Of a stretch of DNA of 64,000 nucleotides, positions 52,697-64,000 are shown in pieces. This DNA comes from an uncultured Bacteroidota bacterium. GTDB taxonomy: Bacteria; Bacteroidota; Bacteroidia; AKYH767-A; OLB10. The stretch is from NCBI GenBank assembly GCA_900696575.1, contig CAADHD010000016.1, positions 62,001 to 126,000 on the forward strand, given 5' to 3'. Numbering within the stretch: position 1 is the first letter of the stretch; every line of letters begins with the position of its first letter. The notes under the pieces are model-generated. The model was not told the DNA's origin. It made no database searches and worked only from the letters and a program-made list of their open reading frames with translations. Made by a program: the position numbers and the translations under genes.

Positions 52697-53617
52697 TCAT
52701 GTAACGGATTCATGTCTGGCTCCTTCCATCACCCTGAAAATATGAAATACTTCAGGAATGATTGCGTCCATAGATTCTTCGGCTCCTCTTGTAGAACCGG
52801 GCAGGGCTAATACAAGAGTTTTATTTATCAGACCGGCCATGCTGCGCGACAACATGGAGTAAGGGGTGCGTTGTTGTCCGTAATTTCTCAACGCTTCTTC
52901 AATACCCGGAATCCGTTTTTCTAAAACCTGCTCCAGTGCTTCGGGGGTTACATCTCTTGGCGAAAGCCCTGTGCCTCCCGTAAAAATCACCAGGTTCAGA
53001 TTAAGCGATGCGTAGTATTGAGCTTTTTCACGAATCAACATTGTTTCATCAGGTATAATGATGTAATCGGCAATTTCAATCTGGTGGCGCGATAGTTTTT
53101 CAATTATTTTTTTTCCGGCACGGTCTTCTTTTTTACCTTTTGCAACCGAATCGGAACAAACAATAACGGCAGCCTTTATGCCGGTAATTTCTTTTTTTAC
53201 GAAATCGCTTTTGCCGCCACTTTTTTCTAATAGCCGGATGCCGGTTATTTCAATATGCTTGTCAAGGGGTTTCAGCATGTCATACATGGTAAGTGCCGCT
53301 ACCGAAACGCCATGCATGGCTTCCACTTCAGCACCTGTTTTGTAAACGGTTTGCACTTCGACCGCAATTACAATTTCGTTGTTGAGAATTTCTGAATGTA
53401 CATGGCAGTATTCTACCGGCAGGGGATGGCAGTCGGGAATCATATCGCTGGTACGTTTAACGGCAAACAGCGCTGCTGCTTTAGCCATTTCATGGATATT
53501 ACCCTTTGGTACACGGTTTTCGCGGATGGCCGTTAAGGTCTTTTCGCTGCTTACTTTTACAATGGCCTGCGCTTTTGCTTTTCGCAGGGTGGTGTTTTTA
53601 TGGGTAATGTTTACCAT
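52697..53617 (-). CDS. Fused molybdenum cofactor proteins MoaC-MoaB
   Basis: This 306-aa bifunctional protein has two domains. Residues about 1-148 are MoaC, which with MoaA makes cyclic pyranopterin monophosphate from GTP: MIPDCHPLPVEYCHVH, TGAEVEAMHGVSVAALTMYDMLK, and the Lys-rich end KSGGKSDF. Residues about 152-306 are MoaB/Mog, which adenylates molybdopterin: FTGGTGLSPRDVTPEALE and the C-terminal LALPGSTRGAEESM. Joined MoaC-MoaB proteins are known from other Bacteroidota. It is the last gene of the molybdoenzyme operon, 4 nt after moaE. No terminator was recognised downstream. Confidence 0.93.
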   Translation of the reverse strand: MVNITHKNTTLRKAKAQAIVKVSSEKTLTAIRENRVPKGNIHEMAKAAALFAVKRTSDMIPDCHPLPVEYCHVHSEILNNEIVIAVEVQTVYKTGAEVEAMHGVSVAALTMYDMLKPLDKHIEITGIRLLEKSGGKSDFVKKEITGIKAAVIVCSDSVAKGKKEDRAGKKIIEKLSRHQIEIADYIIIPDETMLIREKAQYYASLNLNLVIFTGGTGLSPRDVTPEALEQVLEKRIPGIEEALRNYGQQRTPYSMLSRSMAGLINKTLVLALPGSTRGAEESMDAIIPEVFHIFRVMEGARHESVT

Positions 53618-53621
53618 ATGC

Positions 53622-54068
53622 TCAATGGGTATTATTTGTTTTCCAGATGTGTTTTTGATTCGTCAGAATTTCGCGCCCCCATACCGGTAATTCTTTTTTG
53701 ATACGCTCAACGGTTTCGCTGCAAGCTTCCATAGCAGCCTTACGGTGAACAGACGAGGTAAAAACAAAAAGGCAAATTTCACCGGCTTTAACCGTACCGA
53801 GGCTGTGGTAAATGTGCATACAGGTAAGAGGATATTTTTCAAAAACAGCTTCCCGTATTTCAGTACATTTTTCAAGCGCCATTTCCTCATAGGCAGAGTA
53901 ATCAATGGCTTCCACTTTTCCATCAGTCTTTTCGTCTGCGCGTACCTGCCCTAAGAAGATACTGTGGCCGCCTATATCATGCTTTTCGCTATGTTTCCTG
54001 ATGGCCTCGGCAATCTGTTCGGGCGAAATGGCACCTGTTACAAAGATATTTTTACGCTTGTGATTCAT
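53622..54068 (-). CDS. moaE: Molybdopterin synthase catalytic subunit MoaE
   Basis: MoaE (148 aa) inserts sulfur from the MoaD C-terminus into precursor Z to make molybdopterin. GHSIFLGQVRADE is near residue 35, YSAYEEMALEK near 63, and the catalytic lysines are in IKKELPVWGREI near 128. The frame is open upstream to 54116, but the family N-terminus fits MNHKRKNIFVTG at 54068. That start overlaps the 3' end of the moeB-like gene by 17 nt. Confidence 0.95.
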   Translation of the reverse strand: MNHKRKNIFVTGAISPEQIAEAIRKHSEKHDIGGHSIFLGQVRADEKTDGKVEAIDYSAYEEMALEKCTEIREAVFEKYPLTCMHIYHSLGTVKAGEICLFVFTSSVHRKAAMEACSETVERIKKELPVWGREILTNQKHIWKTNNTH

Positions 54069-55164
54069 GATAATACCGGTTAAATGGTGCTTCGGCATGA
54101 AGAACGCCTCCTTCAATGTTGCAGATATTTTTTGTCGGATAAATTTTTTTCAGAATTTTAGCTGCTTCTAAACTTCTAATGCCCGAGCGGCAGAATAAAA
54201 AGAGATGGTCAGCATGGGCTAATTCGGAGCTTCTGCTTTTTAATTCAGGTAGTGGAATCTGAAGGCAGGTGAAGTTATCCGGCAGTGAATTTTCGTCTGC
54301 GTTTCTTACATCAACAAATAAATTTTTTTCCGGATTGTTTTCAACTCTTTTCAATGCTTCTTTCCATGAAAAATGCGGCACAGGGCTGCAACTGACGGCA
54401 TAGTCTCTGGTGAGCAACTCCTTTCTGTTTCGCGGTATGTTTTTTTTAGAACCGGGCACAGGTAAAATTTCTGCGTTAAACCACCGGTAATTCAACAGGT
54501 TGAAAAGCAGAATTTTTCCTTGAAGTGTTTGGCCGTATCCGGTAATCCACTTGATGGCTTCGGCTGCCATCATGGTTCCGATAATGCCGGGCAATACTCC
54601 TAACACCCCCGATTGGTTGCAGTCGGGAATGGTGTCAGTTTCGGGTAGCTCCGGATTTAAGTCTCGGTAGCATACGGAATTATCGTCTTGCGGATTAAAT
54701 AAAGCCACTTGCCCTTCGTTGCGGTAGATAGCCCCGAAGATCCATGGCTTTTTCATTAACATACAGGCATCGTTTATCAGGTAGCGTGCGGCAAAGTTGT
54801 CGGTGCAGTCAATTATCAAATCGTATTTTTCAATAAGCGGAATAATGTTCTGATTGTTCAGCCATTCAGGAAAAACATCCACATGCATGTTTCTGTATTG
54901 ACCGGTAAGTTGCAGGGCTGCCGTTGCCGCTTTATTTTTATCAACATCATTTTCGCCAAATAAAACCTGGCGGTTGAGGTTTGAAATCATTACGGTGTCG
55001 CCATCGGCTATTCCTAAAGTTCCTACACCGGCAGCAGCAAGGTATTGCAGTACCGGGCAACCCAACCCACCGGCACCTACTACCAGAACTCCGGCATGGA
55101 GAAGTTTTTCCTGAGCAGTTATACCGAAACCTTCCAGCAGTATCTGTTTTTCGAACCTATTCAT
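54052..55164 (-). CDS. moeB: MoeB/ThiF-type adenylyltransferase with a C-terminal rhodanese domain
   Basis: This 370-aa protein activates the MoaD C-terminus by adenylation and probably supplies its sulfur. The E1-like domain (about 1-245) has VLVVGAGGLGCPVLQYLAAAG, DGDTVMISNLNRQVLF and DCTDNFAARYLINDAC. The rhodanese domain (about 270-370) has LFVDVRNADE and the active-site loop FCRSGIRS. The zinc cysteines of E. coli MoeB are degenerate. CYxxL loses its second Cys (CYRDLNP), and the later CxxC is replaced around PVPGSKKNIP, while the Cys in DCNQSGVLG is kept. The start at 55164 (MNRFEKQILL) lies 4 nt after moaD. Confidence 0.9.
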   Translation of the reverse strand: MNRFEKQILLEGFGITAQEKLLHAGVLVVGAGGLGCPVLQYLAAAGVGTLGIADGDTVMISNLNRQVLFGENDVDKNKAATAALQLTGQYRNMHVDVFPEWLNNQNIIPLIEKYDLIIDCTDNFAARYLINDACMLMKKPWIFGAIYRNEGQVALFNPQDDNSVCYRDLNPELPETDTIPDCNQSGVLGVLPGIIGTMMAAEAIKWITGYGQTLQGKILLFNLLNYRWFNAEILPVPGSKKNIPRNRKELLTRDYAVSCSPVPHFSWKEALKRVENNPEKNLFVDVRNADENSLPDNFTCLQIPLPELKSRSSELAHADHLFLFCRSGIRSLEAAKILKKIYPTKNICNIEGGVLHAEAPFNRYYHESQA

Positions 55165-55168
55165 TTTT

Positions 55169-55414
55169 TTAACCACCCGAAAAGGGAGGCAGCAAGGCAA
55201 TTTCATCCCCCGGTTTTAAGAATTGGTTTTCAGTATTGATTTTGCAGTTGATGGAAATTGCAAATTTCATTTTTTCTAGTTCAGGAAATTGTTGAATCAA
55301 GTTTTTCATCAGCACAGCGGTGGTGTCAACAAATGGGAATTCCAGATTTTCACAACCGGTTTTTTCAATGAGCATACCGAAAAATCGGATCACTATTTTA
55401 TTGTTTACTTGCAT
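55169..55414 (-). CDS. moaD: Molybdopterin synthase sulfur carrier subunit MoaD
   Basis: MoaD (81 aa) is a ubiquitin-fold protein whose C-terminal Gly-Gly (ALLPPFSGG) is adenylated by MoeB and then turned into a thiocarboxylate. The start at 55414 (MQVNNKIVIRFFGML) overlaps the mobA 3' end by 17 nt; a longer start at 55432 is less likely. The exact PPFSGG ending and position between moeB and mobA make the call firm. Confidence 0.93.
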   Translation of the reverse strand: MQVNNKIVIRFFGMLIEKTGCENLEFPFVDTTAVLMKNLIQQFPELEKMKFAISINCKINTENQFLKPGDEIALLPPFSGG

Positions 55415-55985
55415 AATGTTTTTCCAGATCAAGAGGAGTATTTAAATTATCAAACATTCGGTTATTGTAAACGGTAAAGGAGTCCATATTGCAAATTTTG
55501 TAATTGCAGGTAAGAATGAAATCGGTTAATTTCAGCTTATTGTCTTCAATTTGTTTTTTGACTGAAGTCAGCAATGTTTTTTTGTACACGGCCAAAAGGG
55601 GATACAATCGTTGATGAGCCTGAGCAACCGTTACCTGCTCGCTGCCGCAGTTTTTTGCTAAAAATTTCACGGCATCAACATTTAAAAATGGCATATCGCT
55701 ACTGAGCAGCAGAACCGCCCGGGCAGCGGTATGGTGTAAAGCGGTAAACAATCCGCCCATTGGTCCTTTATCGTTTATGAGGTCTTTATAAACGTTTAGT
55801 CCAAGCCGGGCATACTCCTCCCTGTTAGCTATAAGGGTGGCTGATAATCCGTTACAAGCAAGTGTATCAAGAATATGGGTTACCATTGGTTTTCCTTCAA
55901 AGAGCATCAATCCTTTATCACATTTCATGCGCGAACTTTTGCCACCGGCAAGCACAAAAATTTCTATGTCGGGCCATGCCATCAT
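55398..55985 (-). CDS. mobA: Molybdenum cofactor guanylyltransferase MobA
   Basis: MobA (195 aa) attaches GMP to molybdopterin to make the MGD form used by the DMSO reductase family. It is a nucleotidyltransferase fold with VLAGGKSSRMKCDKGLMLFEGKPM at the start (as written, GGxSxRM...DK), NDKGPMGGLFTAL near residue 75 and SSDMPFLN near 97 with the metal-binding Asp. Its presence in the operon fits a bis-MGD enzyme as the client. It follows moeA by 1 nt. Confidence 0.93.
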   Translation of the reverse strand: MMAWPDIEIFVLAGGKSSRMKCDKGLMLFEGKPMVTHILDTLACNGLSATLIANREEYARLGLNVYKDLINDKGPMGGLFTALHHTAARAVLLLSSDMPFLNVDAVKFLAKNCGSEQVTVAQAHQRLYPLLAVYKKTLLTSVKKQIEDNKLKLTDFILTCNYKICNMDSFTVYNNRMFDNLNTPLDLEKHYASKQ

Positions 55986-55986
55986 G

Positions 55987-57174
55987 TTACCAGAAGTATG
56001 TTTTTACAAGCGTTCCTTCGCTAAACGTTTCTGCATTTTCGGGTAATTCGGCCATGCCGCAACAGTCTGAAAACGGAAGGAGATTAAAAGACTCCTGCCC
56101 GCCTGTAATCCATACTTTGTTACCGGCCGGTTTAACCTTTGCAAAAAGCGTTAAGCCGGAAATTTTAGAAAAAGAGTTTGCCAGCGGCAACATTTTAAAA
56201 TCAGACCATGCATTCTGCAGGCCTTTACGCTGCAAAATACAGGGTTTAACATAGCGGAGCATACATGAAATGGCAGCAGCCGGATTGCCGGGTAAGGCGA
56301 ATACCGGCTTCTTGGTATTATCAGCAGTAAGGTAATAGCCGGCAAAGAGTGGCTTTCCGGGTTTTTGTTTCACTTTGTAAAAGAGTTGCTGCACTCCGTT
56401 GTTCAGCAGGGCTGGTCTTACAAAGTCGTAATCGCCTGCCGAAATGCCTCCTGAAACAATAATCATATCATAAGATTGAAGAGCCTTGCGGATAGCTTCG
56501 GATAACAGTTGCAGCGAATCGGCAATGTGTGAGAAACTCATTTGTTCAACGCCCAACATTTTCAGAAAAGCGCAGATTGCGGGCTGGTTTGAGTTATAAA
56601 TATGGTTTTCATGCAGTGGAGTACCGGGAGGCTGAAGTTCGTTTCCGGTTACAATAACAGCTACCGAAGGGATATTGAATACTTTAACCTTTTCTATACC
56701 CGCTGAGGCTAACAGTGCAATCAACCCCGGAGTAAGCCATGCGCCCTGTTTTGCGATGACATCACCTGCTTTGCATTGTGAGCCGCGCAAACGGATGTTG
56801 TCGCCTTTACGAATTTTGTCCGAATTAATTTTAAGCTGGTTGTTTGCTATTTCGGTTATCTCCTGTTTGGCAACTGTATCAGTACCCGTGGGTATTGGAG
56901 CGCCCGTAAAAATTCTGACCGCCTGCCGGGGTTCAACGGTAAAGCCGGCTGCACTACCGGCCTGTATGGTTCCTTTTATTTCAAAAAGATTTTCACCGTT
57001 GAAGCAGAAGGCATACCCATCCATGGCAGAATTATGGAAGGAAGGCACATCGTAAAGGGCATGAGCATCAGCCGCCAGCACAAAACCTGATGCCGAACAA
57101 AGACTGCGCTCAGCAATTTCTTTTTGATTACAGTTATCGGTAATGAGCTTTTCTGCTTCTGAAACGGTAATCAT
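55987..57174 (-). CDS. moeA: Molybdopterin molybdenumtransferase MoeA
   Basis: MoeA (395 aa) inserts molybdate into adenylated molybdopterin. Visible motifs are FHNSAMDGYAF near residue 46, GAPIPTGTDTVAKQE near 90, VIVTGNEL near 170, SGGISAGDYDFVRPAL near 245 and ALPGNPAAAISCM near 297, where the family has the conserved PGNPxS/A segment. The last 80 residues form domain IV. Length is normal. It starts 4 nt after moaA. Confidence 0.95.
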   Translation of the reverse strand: MITVSEAEKLITDNCNQKEIAERSLCSASGFVLAADAHALYDVPSFHNSAMDGYAFCFNGENLFEIKGTIQAGSAAGFTVEPRQAVRIFTGAPIPTGTDTVAKQEITEIANNQLKINSDKIRKGDNIRLRGSQCKAGDVIAKQGAWLTPGLIALLASAGIEKVKVFNIPSVAVIVTGNELQPPGTPLHENHIYNSNQPAICAFLKMLGVEQMSFSHIADSLQLLSEAIRKALQSYDMIIVSGGISAGDYDFVRPALLNNGVQQLFYKVKQKPGKPLFAGYYLTADNTKKPVFALPGNPAAAISCMLRYVKPCILQRKGLQNAWSDFKMLPLANSFSKISGLTLFAKVKPAGNKVWITGGQESFNLLPFSDCCGMAELPENAETFSEGTLVKTYFW

Positions 57175-57178
57175 TTTT

Positions 57179-58159
57179 TTATCCTCCTATATTGACCATA
57201 CTCCGGTTAAAGATTTTATGCGCTTCCGTATTCCGGTAGCCATGCGTAAACTGACCACCCATAGTTTGGTGTTTCAATAGCAGCGACTGACGGATAACGG
57301 GCTCCAGAGGCATGCCGGTACGCAGTGCTGCTAGCAGGTCGAGTTCCTCTTTTCCAAAGAGGCAGTTTTTTATTTTTCCGTCAGCAGTCAGGCGGATACG
57401 GTTGCACTCACCGCAGAACTGACGGCTCATGGTAGTTATAAAAGCAAAGGTACCTTCATAACCTATTACTTTGTATTTTCGTGCGGTAGAGTGCGGTTCA
57501 TCTTTGAGTTTTACAACGTCATATTCGTTACAAACAATGCGGAATAATTCGGAAGCCGTAATAACTTTTTCACTGTTCCAGCCATTGCCTTTGAAAGGCA
57601 TAAATTCGATAAAGCGAATGTGCAACGGCAGGTTTCCGGTGAGTTCGATGAATCGCAGAATTTCCTGTTGAATAAAACCGTTGATAGCCACAACATTTAT
57701 TTTAACGCGAATACGGTGTTCAAGCAGCAGGAGGATATTCTTCCAGACACGATGAAAATGGTTAACTTGCGTAATGGAGGCGAAAGCATGAGGATTCAGA
57801 GAATCAAGACTAACATTAACCGATGAGAACCGGGCATTAACGAGGGTTTCAATATGGCGGTGCAGCAGGGAGCCGTTGGTAGTCAGCACCCTTTCTACAG
57901 GCAGTTTGGCAAGACGGAAGGCAATATCACCAAAATCATTTCTTACTAAAGGCTCGCCACCGGTAAGCCTGATTTTATTTATGCCGAGGCTTACAAATTC
58001 GGCTGCTATTTTTTCAATTTCATCAGCCGACATCAGTTGCCTTTGCTGTAAGCAAGAGTGTTGGCTCACCGGCATACAATAGCTGCACTTAAAGTTGCAT
58101 TTATCGGTTAACGAAATGCGCAGGTAGTTGTGAAGACGGTGATAACGGTCTCTCAGCAT
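57179..58159 (-). CDS. moaA: GTP 3',8-cyclase MoaA
   Basis: MoaA (326 aa) is the radical SAM enzyme that starts cofactor synthesis from GTP. The radical SAM cluster is CNFKCSYC near residue 21, and KIRLTGGEPLVR near 60 contacts SAM. The second 4Fe-4S cluster is held by CGECNRIRLTADGKIKNC near 245-262. The protein ends in the Gly-Gly tail (NIGG) needed for activity. It starts 2 nt after tatA. Confidence 0.97.
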   Translation of the reverse strand: MLRDRYHRLHNYLRISLTDKCNFKCSYCMPVSQHSCLQQRQLMSADEIEKIAAEFVSLGINKIRLTGGEPLVRNDFGDIAFRLAKLPVERVLTTNGSLLHRHIETLVNARFSSVNVSLDSLNPHAFASITQVNHFHRVWKNILLLLEHRIRVKINVVAINGFIQQEILRFIELTGNLPLHIRFIEFMPFKGNGWNSEKVITASELFRIVCNEYDVVKLKDEPHSTARKYKVIGYEGTFAFITTMSRQFCGECNRIRLTADGKIKNCLFGKEELDLLAALRTGMPLEPVIRQSLLLKHQTMGGQFTHGYRNTEAHKIFNRSMVNIGG

Positions 58160-58161
58160 CT

Positions 58162-58359
58162 CTACTCTTTCAGTTTATTGATTTCGGATTCTATACCGGA
58201 TTTTCCTTTTTTGAATTCATGGATGCCTTTTCCGATGCCCCGCATAAGCTCAGGTATTTTCTTTCCTCCAAAGAGAAACAGCACTACGGCAGCTATTAGC
58301 ATAAGCTCGGTAGTGCCGGGCATTCCGAACAGAAATACAGTCAGTGTTATATTTATCAT
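58162..58359 (-). CDS. TatA/E-type translocase protein in the molybdoenzyme operon
   Basis: This 65-aa TatA-like protein has one membrane helix ([13 protein letters not shown]), the hinge [16 protein letters not shown] and a short charged amphipathic tail. It overlaps the chaperone gene by 4 nt (ATGA) and is followed by moaA after 2 nt, so it is strictly part of the operon. A dedicated TatA for exporting the folded molybdoenzyme is inferred. It is shorter than the stand-alone TatA at 26304-26588. Confidence 0.93.
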
Positions 58360-58955
58360 AGGTTCACAGATTTAATAATTTCGGTTTCTGCTTTAATAAA
58401 AGCGGTAAGCAGATTAGCCACGGTAATAAAATATCTGCCGGCATCGCCTTCGCGTATTTTATCGGCCAAAGCCAGGGCAAATTCGGCAGCATGGTCAGTC
58501 AGAAAATCTTCGCATGCTTTTCCGGTAATTTCTTTTTCTTGCAGCCCGGGTGCAATAGAAATTTTCAGGCAGAGCAGGGCAAGAAATTCGAGTTCGTGCA
58601 TGATAGAGTCAGGGTTTTCACCGCTTTTGGGGCTGAATCCGAAGGCGGCATAAAAGCCGTTAACATCAGATATGCTGTTGAATTTTTTCAGGGTATGGCT
58701 TTCGCTGAGCGGCACACCTCCTTTAATAAAAATACGGGAGTAATCATGGAGAATTTCTGATTCAACCATAGAGGAGTTTAGCGTTGCAATTAAATTTTGA
58801 ATTTCGCTGTCAGGATATCCGGCTTCGCACAGCGCCTGTGATAATTCGCTGATAGTGCCAAGTTTTTCAGAGGCAGGAAAATCAAAACAGTTTGCCAGAA
58901 GACGGTAAAGGTCAGCCTTTATCAGAACTCTGTCGGTATGATGTAGTGCATCCAT
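58356..58955 (-). CDS. TorD/DmsD-family molybdoenzyme assembly chaperone
   Basis: This 199-aa, mostly helical protein lies directly after the haem subunit gene (6-nt gap). Family features are the N-terminal helix [16 protein letters not shown], the [18 protein letters not shown] segment near residue 75 (the YxxLFxGxxxxPxxPYES-like motif), and the acidic helix [15 protein letters not shown] near 125. Such proteins hold the catalytic subunit until the cofactor is inserted, and in some cases guard its Tat signal. It is comparable to the delta subunits of ethylbenzene dehydrogenase and selenate reductase. Confidence 0.85.
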
Positions 58956-58961
58956 ATTCAG

Positions 58962-60227
58962 TTATTTTTCGATAAATAGATCAGCCCATTGTGTATAGTG
59001 CTTACGGCCTCCGATATTCTGGTTGCCTCCATCCCAAACGGCAAAGGCGACTTTGGTTTTGTCTTTAAAGGAAGCTTTAAAGATATTGCCTGTATTTACA
59101 GGAATGATAATACAAACTCGCCATTTGCCTTCTCTCCATTCTCCCCATCCTGAAGCGGACTGTGTTTCCTGAGTGGCCAGGGTGCCAAAACCTTCGGCAT
59201 TGGCTTCTTCAACGGGAACCTTGCGTTTAATCAGCGACATCGGGTTTTTGGAATAAGTTCCCGGCATAGTGCCGAAGGCGCTCGTTTCTACAATCAATTC
59301 GGCATGGATGTCTTGCGAATAAATGCGTTTGCTGCGGTCTAAATAACTTTCGAGACCGGGATATACATCAACCCACATATTCGGGTGTAGGTCGAGTACA
59401 TCGCGAAATCCTTTTTCACAGTCTTCCTGCCAGATGGCTTTCCAGTGAACGATATGCACTTTTCCTCCCTGATTTCCCATCATATAATTTGGAATGTCGT
59501 TCACATCTACAGGCAACTGAACAGCCAACTGGTCGCAAAACTTGTCGGCATCTACTTCTGTGTTTTTAGAACTATCGTTCCATTCGATAAGAAAAGCAAG
59601 CTGATTTTCACGGTAAACAGTTTTTACCGTAATCTCATCAACAGTGGCTTTATGGAGGTTAGGGTAAGCTACCTTCTGAGCTGCAACGGGAATTTTTTTT
59701 GCCGGAGCATTTTTCCAGATGTCAGCATTCAGAGATTTGGGATCAATGCCTTCGGCAGAACGGATGGCTTTTATCTGGTGTTCGGCATGAACCCATTCTA
59801 TAACGGGTGGCGGGGCGGATTTTGCAACGTTGGTGGTCTGTTTTTCTTTCGGGGCGGAGGGAGCCTGAGTTTTTATTGCCGGAGCCGGACTGTTGGCTTT
59901 AATGTAAGCCAGAATGTCTTTTATCTGGGTGTCGCTAAGGTTCTGATCGGGCATAACCAGTTTGTTAAACTCGTTGAACAGTTTAACGGCTGCGGCATCA
60001 TTGTTTTTTATCATAGTTTGCGAAGAGCGGATAAAACTGCCAAGCCATTTTTCGGTTCTGCGGTAGGTTACTCCCGATAAATCAGGTCCTACTAATTTTC
60101 CTTTGCCAATGTGATGGCAGGGCGAACAGGTGGTTTTAAAAATCTTTTCGCCCATGGCTGTGTTTTGCGAATAGCCATTCCAGAAAGCGGTGCATATAAT
60201 GATTGCAGGGAAGATTATTTTTTTCAT
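58962..60227 (-). CDS. Secreted cytochrome c fused to an ethylbenzene dehydrogenase-type haem b domain (gamma subunit)
   Basis: This 421-aa protein has a signal peptide (about 1-20) and a small cytochrome c domain with the haem attachment site CSPCHH (C34, C37, H38) and a likely Met ligand in KLVMPDQNLSD near 98. An Ala/Pro/Lys linker (about 115-140) leads to a domain of about 270 residues. That domain looks like the gamma subunit of type II DMSO-reductase enzymes (KVHIVHWKAIWQEDC, WGEWREGKWRVCIIIP), which binds haem b. Electrons would pass from the iron-sulfur subunit to haem b and then haem c. The start at 60227 gives a good signal peptide; an ATG at 60248 is an alternative. Confidence 0.85.
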   Translation of the reverse strand: MKKIIFPAIIICTAFWNGYSQNTAMGEKIFKTTCSPCHHIGKGKLVGPDLSGVTYRRTEKWLGSFIRSSQTMIKNNDAAAVKLFNEFNKLVMPDQNLSDTQIKDILAYIKANSPAPAIKTQAPSAPKEKQTTNVAKSAPPPVIEWVHAEHQIKAIRSAEGIDPKSLNADIWKNAPAKKIPVAAQKVAYPNLHKATVDEITVKTVYRENQLAFLIEWNDSSKNTEVDADKFCDQLAVQLPVDVNDIPNYMMGNQGGKVHIVHWKAIWQEDCEKGFRDVLDLHPNMWVDVYPGLESYLDRSKRIYSQDIHAELIVETSAFGTMPGTYSKNPMSLIKRKVPVEEANAEGFGTLATQETQSASGWGEWREGKWRVCIIIPVNTGNIFKASFKDKTKVAFAVWDGGNQNIGGRKHYTQWADLFIEK

Positions 60228-60272
60228 GATTCTGATTTTTACAGGCATAATGGAATGAAATGATTAAAATGA

Positions 60273-61403
60273 TTAAGGAGTGTTGTGGCGGTAGGTTTGG
60301 TGGGTTTCGTCCCAATGGGGGCGCATAAAAACCGGTTCGGAATAAGGAACACGGACTACTTCATCTCCGCGTTCATTGTAACCAACGGCAAAATTTTCTT
60401 CGGCACGGTAAGAATGAATGATTTTAGGAGTGTTGCCAAAGAGGAGAAAAGCAGCGAGTAATTCACGGTCGTCTTTCATGTTACGGTAGATTTCAATGGC
60501 TTTATCCACACCGGGGCCGAACATTTGGTAAAGAAAATCTTTCGGTACATGAATGGGGGGTACGTAATATACATTGGGTTGAGTGCCGAACTGAGGATAC
60601 AGAGGTAATGCCAATTGGCGAATGCGCACAATCATGTCAATCGGGTTGTCTTTGCGCGGTGCTTTGGTGTCTTCCATAAATCCTTGCATTCTTATTTTGC
60701 CTATGCAGGTGGTAACACAGCGGGGCTGTTCGCCTTTTTCGATTAACGGATAACATCCAATACATTTTTCGGACACACGGGTAACCATGTTGTAAAATGT
60801 TTTCTTGTAGGGACATGCTTTCACGCATTCTTTGTAACCTCTGCAGCGCGACTGGTCTATAAGAACAATACCATCTTCTTCGCGTTTGTAAATAGCTTTT
60901 CGCGGGCAGGCAGCCAAACATGCCGGGTAAGAGCAATGGTTACATATACGTGCAAGGTAAAACATCCAAACATTGTGAATACCGGAGAAGAAGGCACCTT
61001 TATCAAGCGTGCCAAGTACTTCGTCTTCGCCAATATTGGGATAGGCATAATTGCGTTCGGTAGGTCTCCAACCGTTTACACGTTCGCCAGCAGCCGTTTC
61101 TTCGAACACGGTCTGGCCTTTGTAAACTCCGTTGCTGTCCCACTGCTGGTCCTTAAGTTCTTTAAGTGTATTTACATCCCATTTCTGAGGATAACCGCCA
61201 TACGGTTTGGTTTCAACATTATTGAAGAATATGGTTTCTTCTCCTTTACCTGATGTCCAGGTAGTTTTACAGGCAACGGTGCAGGTTTGGCAGGCAATGC
61301 ATTTGTTGGTATCAAACACATAGGTAATTTGTTTTTTGGGTTTGGCATCCTCGTAAGGGTAATTCATTTCCCTTTTTAATTGCGTGTTAAATACTTTTGA
61401 CAT
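60273..61403 (-). CDS. Iron-sulfur (beta) subunit of a type II DMSO reductase family enzyme
   Basis: This 376-aa electron-transfer subunit is related to NarH, NxrB and EbdB. Four cysteine groups are visible: C35-IA-C38-QT-C41-TVA-C45; C154-NH-C157 with C162 and C166; C187, C193, C197; and C214-IG-C217 with C229 and C233. In the third group Tyr190 stands where a cluster Cys is expected. By analogy with the Trp in NarH, this indicates a 3Fe-4S cluster, so three 4Fe-4S and one 3Fe-4S are predicted. No signal peptide is present, so it is exported with the alpha subunit by the Tat route. It lies 27 nt after the alpha gene. Confidence 0.92.
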   Translation of the reverse strand: MSKVFNTQLKREMNYPYEDAKPKKQITYVFDTNKCIACQTCTVACKTTWTSGKGEETIFFNNVETKPYGGYPQKWDVNTLKELKDQQWDSNGVYKGQTVFEETAAGERVNGWRPTERNYAYPNIGEDEVLGTLDKGAFFSGIHNVWMFYLARICNHCSYPACLAACPRKAIYKREEDGIVLIDQSRCRGYKECVKACPYKKTFYNMVTRVSEKCIGCYPLIEKGEQPRCVTTCIGKIRMQGFMEDTKAPRKDNPIDMIVRIRQLALPLYPQFGTQPNVYYVPPIHVPKDFLYQMFGPGVDKAIEIYRNMKDDRELLAAFLLFGNTPKIIHSYRAEENFAVGYNERGDEVVRVPYSEPVFMRPHWDETHQTYRHNTP

Positions 61404-61430: not shown

Positions 61431-64000
61431 TTATTTTTTAATAAATCCTCCGGCAAGGAATTTTTTGAAGTCATCGTCTTCGTAAGTAGGCCTCATGCCG
61501 TTAGCAGCACCTTCCCAAAGGCCGTTACCGCCAATACCGCCTTTTTCGGCCAGTGTAATTTTTACAAATGCTTCGCGGGGATTTCCCGTTGCACCATGCA
61601 CATCAACTTCGAACCCTTTACCGATTCCCTGTCCGAAATTATTTTTTCTAACCAGTGAATCAGTAAGGAGCGTAGGCTTCAGCCATGCACGGGTGCAGCT
61701 CTGGTGCGACCCGTTACGGAATAAAGCCTGGTATCCGGTTTTGTTGTTTTTGGCAATACCGGTTTCGTTTTCTTTAGCACCTTGCACCGAACCATAGGTA
61801 GCACCATAGGCATTATGCCACATACGGGTAACACCGCGTGGTGTACCCGGATAATAACGGGCACGGGCTTTTAAACGAGCCAGTTCGTATTCAGCACCAT
61901 CCTTTTTCTGCTGCCATCCGCGAAACGGTCGGTCGCTAGGGTCAGCATCAATCCATACATAATCGCCATCTTCAATGCCAAGCTCTTTGGCATCCACCGG
62001 ATTTATGTCCACATACAATTCGCTGGTAAACGGTATGCGTTTGTCTTTGCGGTGGATGTCGCCAAATGGACCGAACCAAACGGCAATAATGTCTGTATCT
62101 ACCGGGGTGGTGTGAGCACCATGCCTGAATTTAGGGGTGTGAAAAATGAACTTATAATCCTTATCAGCTTTATGCAATGGATGCTGAGTAAGTTTAAGTT
62201 CGTTCCATGGTTTTACAACGTTACGTGCCATGCGGATGTCGGTAGCCAGGTCATTTGTATCTACTCCGTACTTGGAGGGTTCATCGGGCATAATGCAGGG
62301 ATGTTTTTTACCCAAAATCACATTGGGTTCGTAAAAGGTAGAATCTATCGGTTCGCGAAATACCACCATGTTTTCGCCTGCTTCAATAAATTCGGGTTCA
62401 TCTCTGTAAAATTCCAGACGTCCTGATTTGGTGTACCAGGGTTTGTTTTCGCTGCTTTGTTCCATGCCTACATATTTTGGTGTGGTGCGGGTCATCAGCA
62501 AGGCAGGAATTCCTTGTTTTGCTTTTGCTTCCAGTTCTTCAAACTTATAGCCTTTGGTTCCCTGGCTGGCATTAAGGATGCGTTGCAGGTAAACTTCCAC
62601 TTTGTTATCGTGAACGAATTTGAAGTAATCTTTGAATCGCAAATCACCGGTCAAATCGGCAAAGGCCGAAGCAATACCTGCCAGCACTTCAATGTCGCCT
62701 TTGGTGTCAAAAATTCTATTAAGCGGAGTTTTAGGAAATACATAAAGGAAAGGGTTGGTAACGCTGATGGTCATGTCGGGGTATTTGAATTCAGCCCAGG
62801 AATCAACAGGGTAAACAATATCGGCATATTCACAGGATCCGGTCCACCACCACTCATGAACACCAATAAATTCAATTTTAGGAAATACATTGATGACATT
62901 ATCATAATGCCCTTTTGAGTTGGCCAGCAGCGAATTTCCGTTAGAAACCATAACGGATTTTGTAGGGGTAGGCATGTGTGTTTTGCCGGTTAGGTTTTTA
63001 TTGCCCATTCGCAAAATGCGGTCTCCATTGTTAAAGTAGTGTGCCGATTCGTAATGAAGGTATTTTTTTATTTTGGGAGGTTTGTTTTGATCAAGCTCAA
63101 TGTTGAAAGGGTCTTCGACAATGTAACCCGGAATACCGGATAGAAGGGCACCTCGGTAATTACCGGCATACGAACCAACATTGCCGCCTATTTTTCCAAC
63201 GTTGCCTGTGATGCTGGCAAGGAAAAAGATAGCGCGGTCTTTCAGGTCGTTATTGAAGAACTGATTAGGACCCATACCCATGGCAAATGTTGTGGTGCCG
63301 TTGTTGCGCGCAATTTCGCGGGCTACGGTTTTTATTCCTTCTTCGGGTGCCCAGGTTAACTCTTCTACTGATTTAGGATCAAAGTTTTCCAACACATATT
63401 CTTTCATCAAGTCGAAAACAGTTCTTACTTCCACTTCTTTGCCACCCAGAATTTTTACTTTATATTTTCCTTCGAGGGCAGGGTTTAGGCCTTTATTCCG
63501 CATGTAGTTTCCATAGTCATTGCGGGTAAGAATGGCAACTGCATTTTTGTTTTCATCCCAAATCATAAAGTCTCCCCATTCTTTGGCAGTTTCTTCGTCA
63601 ACAAAGGGAACACTCTGTTGTGCAGGAGGTTTGGCTTTTTCATTTTTCTTCAGTACTTCAATGTAATTATTGAGGTCAGAAGGTACATAACCGGGAATTA
63701 TATCAGAAGGCTTAAGCAGTTTTTGATTATCCATTCTGACAAGCAAGGGCAAGTCAGTGAATTTTTTCATAAAGGATTCGTCATACATTTTTTCGGTAAT
63801 GATGACGTGGGCAAAACCTAAAGCGAGGGCGGGAGTGACTCCCGGACGGCATACAATAAGGTTATCAGCTTTGTTGGCAGTAGCACTGTATTCACAGGCT
63901 ATAACAGTAACCTTAGCTCCTTTTAAGCGGGCTTCGGTAAGCCAATGGGCATCGGGCATTTTGGTAGTAATCCAGTTCATACCCCAAACGACAATATGTT
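61431..64000 (-). CDS. Molybdopterin catalytic (alpha) subunit, type II DMSO reductase family (5' end outside window)
   Basis: About 856 C-terminal codons are visible and the frame stays open through the window edge (the codons before the first Met read HIVVWG). [28 protein letters not shown] is the bis-MGD-binding segment seen in NarG-type enzymes. [11 protein letters not shown], the [11 protein letters not shown] region, [13 protein letters not shown] and [17 protein letters not shown] follow, and the C-terminal cofactor region has [14 protein letters not shown]. The missing part of perhaps 250-300 residues holds the Tat signal, the 4Fe-4S cluster and the molybdenum ligand. The subunit pattern fits nitrite oxidoreductase/periplasmic nitrate reductase, selenate, chlorate or hydrocarbon dehydrogenase types. 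Nxr-like is my first guess, not proven. Confidence 0.9.

Follow-up and report, generated by a model that had tools for sequence, protein, structure and literature searches.

Two kinds of enzyme stand closest to the operon described here. The first is canonical nitrite oxidoreductase (NXR; Kuenenia 7B04 and the Nitrospira type); the Kuenenia NXR-ABC complex catalyzes both directions of the nitrite-nitrate conversion, and its family has been described with FS0 ligands of either the 3Cys/1Asp or the 3Cys/1His type (PMC8387239). Pocket residues N312 and E527 are reported to separate NXR from nitrate reductases (NAR) (PMC8387239, PMC12300631). The second is a published sister clade of NXR which contains putative NarGs, the characterized periplasmic NAR of Hydrogenobacter and the NXR of Ca. 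Nitrotoga, a true nitrite oxidizer (PMC6050957); the enzyme of Parabeggiatoa/Beggiatoa 4572_84 is listed as a nitrate reductase (PMC8387239). Metagenome surveys name such genes nxrA, nxr-like or narG, and the literature says outright that the direction of the encoded enzymes is not known. A limited literature search retrieved no published description of such an enzyme in Bacteroidota.

The window, that is, the whole stretch of 64,000 nucleotides analyzed here (C16:62001-126000, the contig running on beyond it), carries an operon for an enzyme of this already known kind, and the operon is a complete, intact member in Bacteroidota. All genes lie on one strand, and from alpha onwards their order is the reverse of the coordinates:

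61431..64000, minus strand: alpha (NxrA/NarG-like catalytic subunit), C-terminal 855 residues, reading frame 5'-truncated by the window edge
60273..61403, minus strand: beta (NarH/NxrB-like iron-sulfur subunit), 376 aa (TIGR03478, 280 bits; Kuenenia NXR-B, 393 bits)
58962..60248, minus strand: gamma, 428 aa, cytochrome c plus EB_dh (PF09459 EB_dh, 89 bits)
58356..58955, minus strand: TorD/NarJ-type assembly chaperone (TIGR03482, 63 bits; PF02613, 36 bits)
57179..58159, minus strand: moaA (TIGR02666, 313 bits)
55987..57174, minus strand: moeA (profile match)
55398..55985, minus strand: mobA-like, MGD synthesis (PF12804)
55169..55432, minus strand: moaD-like, ThiS family (PF02597)
54052..55206, minus strand: moeB/ThiF-like with a rhodanese domain (PF00899, PF00581)
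53622..54116, minus strand: moaE (PF02391)
52697..53617, minus strand: moaC fused to a MoCF_biosynth (Mog/MoaB-like) domain (PF01967 and PF00994)

The alpha reading frame is open at its 5' end at the window edge (63998) and reaches its stop at 61431; the gene extends to C16:126913. Completed from the contig beyond the window, the protein is 1160 aa long, begins with MSINRRKFLK and is free of internal stops, the first in-window Met (63980) being an internal residue and not the start codon. The N-terminus of the full protein, MSINRRKFLKSG, is a twin-arginine signal (Tat motif NRRKFLK). Among solved structures the best match of alpha is Kuenenia NXR-A (852 bits, E 5e-255, full length, 40% identity), followed by PcrA (206 bits), NarG (~140 bits) and EbdA (131 bits). 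The models for cytoplasmic NarG (TIGR01580, 172 bits) and for the Ser/Clr/Ddh/Ebd/Pcr group (TIGR03479, 315 bits) are matched far under their cut-offs of 1084 and 985, respectively. PF00384 picked up solely this alpha in the genome, despite the presence there of an ActB-like protein of alternative complex III (ACIII) which belongs to the same wider superfamily.

Beta follows the same ranking (NXR-B ahead of PcrB, 235 bits, EbdB, 218 bits, and NarH, 199 bits), and its 15 Cys residues fit three [4Fe-4S] clusters and one [3Fe-4S] cluster. A signal peptide was looked for in beta and none was seen; beta is therefore presumed to be exported together with alpha. Gamma is composed of two domains: an N-terminal monohaem cytochrome c (CxxCH at residue 41), which matches cytochromes c including that of ACIII subunit A, and a haem-b EB_dh domain, which matches NXR-C (E 4e-20) and in which M257 and K416 align with the haem-b ligands M155 and K305 of Kuenenia NXR-C. 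The NarG-type alpha, NarH-like beta and EB_dh-type gamma named in the initial annotation are thus borne out by profile and structure matches, both motifs quoted there are present in alpha, and its assignment to the periplasmic type II molybdenum enzymes, with NXR as nearest characterized relative, agrees with the Tat signal and the full-length match. The enzyme shares a periplasmic, Tat-exported alpha and an exported haem-b gamma with the sister-clade NarG/NxrA enzymes (Parabeggiatoa 4572_84, Hydrogenobacter thermophilus, Ca. Nitrotoga), but differs from them in its Bacteroidota host, in the fusion of gamma to cytochrome c and in the Moco cassette lying directly downstream. The gamma-cytochrome c fusion recurs in the closest relatives (L010, L012 and L013), whereas a separate monohaem cytochrome gene lies just upstream of alpha in L014-L016 and elsewhere in the locus in L017.

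The moaA of the operon is the sole MoaA above the family cut-off in the genome. We considered whether, within the order, the Moco cassette is exclusive to this enzyme, and rejected the idea: moaA at full score occurs in 19 of the 42 genomes and the enzyme in three. A membrane protein of the TauE/SafE family, possibly an anion transporter, is a repeated member of the cassettes of relatives (L010:13211-13945, L012, L013, L014, L015 and L023) and is missing from that of the window.

A Bacteroidota origin of the DNA, as first proposed, was upheld by an alpha 85% identical to the query in a MAG labeled 'Bacteroidota bacterium' (L010), by matches in the same order and phylum, and by a T9SS sorting domain encoded elsewhere in the genome. 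Few Bacteroidota have the enzyme, though it is not confined to the query: among the genomes sampled, it was found in 2 of 395 for the phylum and 3 of 42 for the order. The earlier remark that this is a group not usually linked with such enzymes accordingly holds as far as rarity goes; it has to be set against a supported Bacteroidota subclade and a sister clade that spans many phyla. The cassette could not be recognized as a recent foreign island in a composition test, its GC content (0.42-0.45) being that of its surroundings; its patchy occurrence and a Bacteroidota subclade remain after this test. One contig named 'Competibacteraceae BA4' (L013, JACSSC010000036) carries an alpha 79% identical to the query among neighbors that resemble Bacteroidota genes, and is probably a Bacteroidota contig wrongly binned or named.

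For the phylogeny, we collected 413 relatives from species genomes (the best 80 of the 413 were kept) and sequences from 71 of 246 Nitrospirota genomes. The references of the maximum-likelihood tree were Kuenenia NXR-A, PcrA, E. coli NarG, Ideonella ClrA, a chlorite-dismutase-linked enzyme and a haloarchaeal enzyme; the Kuenenia NXR-A and PcrA sequences were copied from printed alignments, and all nine published Kuenenia residue positions that were checked agree (9/9). The search patterns of the relatives scan included WHT and NWI stretches, while the Nitrospirota members came from a search with the whole protein. Alpha groups with NXR-A, apart from the NarG, ClrA and PcrA references, in an NXR superclade with support of 100/100. 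This superclade splits into two branches. To the canonical branch belong Kuenenia, a single NC10 copy and Nitrospirota sequences, often in two copies, which are 56-58% identical to Kuenenia, a level close to the around 60% given in the literature for NXR-A of nitrite oxidizers versus anammox bacteria. In the sister branch, the query stands among sequences from Bacteroidota, Planctomycetota, Acidobacteriota, deltaproteobacteria, Thiotrichales and other groups, including Parabeggiatoa 4572_84 (L035; 60% identity; SH-aLRT 100 in the tree of 62 rows and support of 93/98 in the careful tree). This Parabeggiatoa locus is what links our sister branch to the published sister clade; the kinship of the query with Hydrogenobacter and Nitrotoga rests on PMC6050957, neither being in the present tree.

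Joining the Bacteroidota group to canonical NXR is rejected by the AU test (p 4.8e-10). The proposal that the enzyme is closest to the Nxr-like branch therefore stands at the level of the superclade and fails for Nitrospira/anammox NXR itself. The ML trees likewise do not place alpha with the chlorate, perchlorate or NarG references, and membership of NarG, ClrA or PcrA was rejected on tree position and scores. SerA, DdhA and EbdA were left out of the tree. Compared with the type II group to which PcrA, ClrA and EbdA belong (with SerA and DdhA), the operon has the same exported alpha and beta, EB_dh-type gamma and, as in most of them, TorD-like chaperone, but its alpha is 24-28% identical to ClrA and PcrA.

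We mapped onto the full 1160-aa alpha the active-site residues named in PMC8387239 and PMC12300631. The FS0 ligands are of the 3Cys/1Asp type (C72, D76, C80 and C120), the Mo ligand D280 and the substrate Asn N75 align with D275 and N70 of Kuenenia, and K928 corresponds to its conserved Lys917; none of C72, N75, D76, C80, C120 and D280 is encoded within the window, their positions being upstream of its edge. The Mo Asp ligand, singled out earlier as a point to check, is hence intact in the completed protein. In FS0, the Mo Asp, Asn70, Lys917 and the haem-b Met and Lys, the enzyme resembles canonical NXR, from which it differs by its separate clade, by the lack of a separate NXR-T-like gene in the operon as seen here, and by its pocket: G274, Q276, N312 and E527 of Kuenenia are replaced by T279, L281, T317 and M547, so that the two residues reported to set NXR apart are not the NXR ones. 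Canonical NXR membership was rejected on these residues as well as on the tree and the AU test. L281 and T317 are the residues of NarG at those positions, while M547 is specific to the clade. The T/L/T/M signature was present in 97/97 sister-clade sequences and 0/19 canonical ones (G/Q/N/E in 19/19), although uniformity at position 274 is partly due to selection by the WHT and NWI search patterns, positions 276 and 527 lying outside them. Cytoplasmic NarGHI (E. coli, 1Q16) shares the Mo Asp, substrate Asn, pocket Leu and Thr and four-cluster beta, but is only 25% identical in alpha, has a His at FS0 where the query has C72, is cytoplasmic and uses membrane NarI instead of a Tat signal and a soluble-type gamma. 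Five sister-clade alphas from Nitrospirota (L104-L108) carry the FS0 motif FMCTPNCTHNC, with Cys in place of the FS0 Asp, and are predicted to have an all-cysteine FS0.

The gene content of the genome and of related loci bears on the direction of the enzyme. The query genome encodes NosZ (924 bits, cut-off 625), NosD, a distant NorB-like protein, ACIII, an aa3 oxidase and a cbb3 oxidase. In targeted searches of the same genome, the NirS and NrfA models had zero matches and the NirK model matched solely a CueO-like oxidase, below cut-off. In relatives, NrfH and NrfA adjoin the operon in L023; genes for a NorB-like protein, a monohaem cytochrome and Crp/Fnr-family proteins do so in L015, and molybdate ABC transport genes in L017. 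In L016 (4562-6058), the Bacteroidota enzyme is preceded by an HAO-family octahaem cytochrome and a porin of the alginate-export type. Nitrite- or NO-reductase neighbors are found in few relatives, one locus each. Of 80 loci, 31 have a neighboring gene for cytochrome b or ACIII, pointing to quinol:cytochrome c complexes. Alginate-export-type porins recur before alpha in several relatives.

A dyad with an FNR-type core, TGA[TC]N4[AG]TCA, is located at -115 from the alpha start of the query (about C16:127017-127028, outside the window). Of 17 loci (the query and its close relatives), 13 have it before alpha, in most close relatives 61-149 bases upstream. It occurs in 1 of 16 canonical NXR loci, and 20 of 97 further intergenic regions in the loci of the query and its relatives carry one as well (Fisher p 1.4e-5, to be read with the dyad having been noticed post hoc and the 17 loci not being independent). 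Among 3328 dyad patterns, none is as frequent in this position as TGAT-N4-ATCA (10/17, the best unrelated one reaching 5). Dyads elsewhere in the same loci are perhaps explained by neighbors sharing the regulon. As judged from its sequence, this candidate site may bind a regulator of the FNR/CRP family.

We favor the view that the operon encodes a periplasmic nitrate reductase of the NXR sister clade, with which a partial denitrifier would mostly reduce nitrate (probability about 0.7). This reading draws support from the full-length match to NXR-A with conserved ligands and the well-supported placement with Parabeggiatoa 4572_84; from a pocket that departs from NXR in a genome with NosZ, NosD, a NorB-like protein, ACIII and oxidases; and from the NrfHA, NorB-like and HAO-like neighbors in relatives together with the FNR-type dyad. 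The characterization of the Hydrogenobacter sister-clade enzyme as a periplasmic NAR (PMC6050957) also counts for it. The TorD-like chaperone would fold alpha with bis-MGD, and alpha would leave through Tat with beta. Electrons would pass from quinol through alternative complex III to cytochrome c, the gamma cytochrome c domain and gamma haem b, then over the four beta clusters and FS0 to Mo, where nitrate would be reduced to nitrite. Nitrite would probably be exported or left to other organisms, and the NorB-like protein and NosZ may reduce NO and N2O. At low oxygen, an FNR/CRP-family regulator would probably turn the operon on. The sequence itself shows the subunits and their cofactor ligands, the Tat motif, the Moco cassette, the clade, the dyad and the gene content of the genome, from which the route of the electrons, the regulation and the direction are inferred. 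Against this reading speak the small number of relatives with nitrite- or NO-reductase neighbors, the post hoc discovery of the dyad, the high-potential oxidases and the failure of the targeted genome searches to find a nitrite reductase with which denitrification could continue.

The oxidases and the failure to find a nitrite reductase also suit a physiological nitrite oxidase, linked to O2 through gamma, cytochrome c and the aa3 or cbb3 oxidase, which would serve as a main or supplementary energy source. Its nearest solved relative is indeed NXR, and the Ca. Nitrotoga NXR falls within the published sister clade (PMC6050957), but alpha lies outside canonical NXR, E527 and N312 are not conserved, and the dyad, the nitrite/NO-reductase neighbors of relatives and NosZ all point the other way; we regard this reading as improbable. 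An enzyme that reduces nitrate without oxygen and oxidizes nitrite with oxygen, depending on how reduced or oxidized the cytochrome c pool is, would be in keeping with the two-way Kuenenia complex, with the gamma-cytochrome c fusion and with a genome that has both oxidases and a quinol:cytochrome c complex; it too appears unlikely, the oxidative direction being without direct evidence in the lineage and the FNR-type promoter suggesting expression at low oxygen. With Kuenenia NXR working both ways and a Nitrotoga NXR in the sister clade, direction is beyond the power of sequence to fix. Chlorate, perchlorate, selenate, DMS, a hydrocarbon or another compound as the main substrate is very improbable: the enzyme belongs to the same type II family and scores against TIGR03479, but the NXR superclade as a whole excludes the chlorate and perchlorate references, the PcrA and EbdA scores are far below that of NXR-A, the substrate Asn N75 is kept (Ile in EbdA according to the literature, Gly in ClrA in the present alignment), and no chlorite dismutase was recognized among the neighboring genes examined.

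What this Bacteroidota lineage contributes, beyond a complete operon, are two checkable hints on direction, the FNR-type dyad and the pocket signature, the latter telling sister clade and canonical NXR apart in every sequence sampled. If the hints hold, surveys could drop these organisms as potential nitrite oxidizers, or the exceptions would become worth culturing; that some heterotrophic, NosZ-bearing Bacteroidota are unrecognized facultative nitrite oxidizers, using this enzyme under oxygen, seems doubtful. In NC10 CSP1-5, a sister-clade alpha (58%) shares one contig (L043, LDXR01000015) with a canonical-type NxrA (70% to Kuenenia) that lies a few kilobases away, and direction could be tested on this naturally occurring pair. 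On plasmid 2 of Natronococcus occultus (L008:6001-9494), a haloarchaeal sister-clade alpha lacks a gene annotation, and its N-terminal part lies in another frame, which is a frameshift or a sequencing error.
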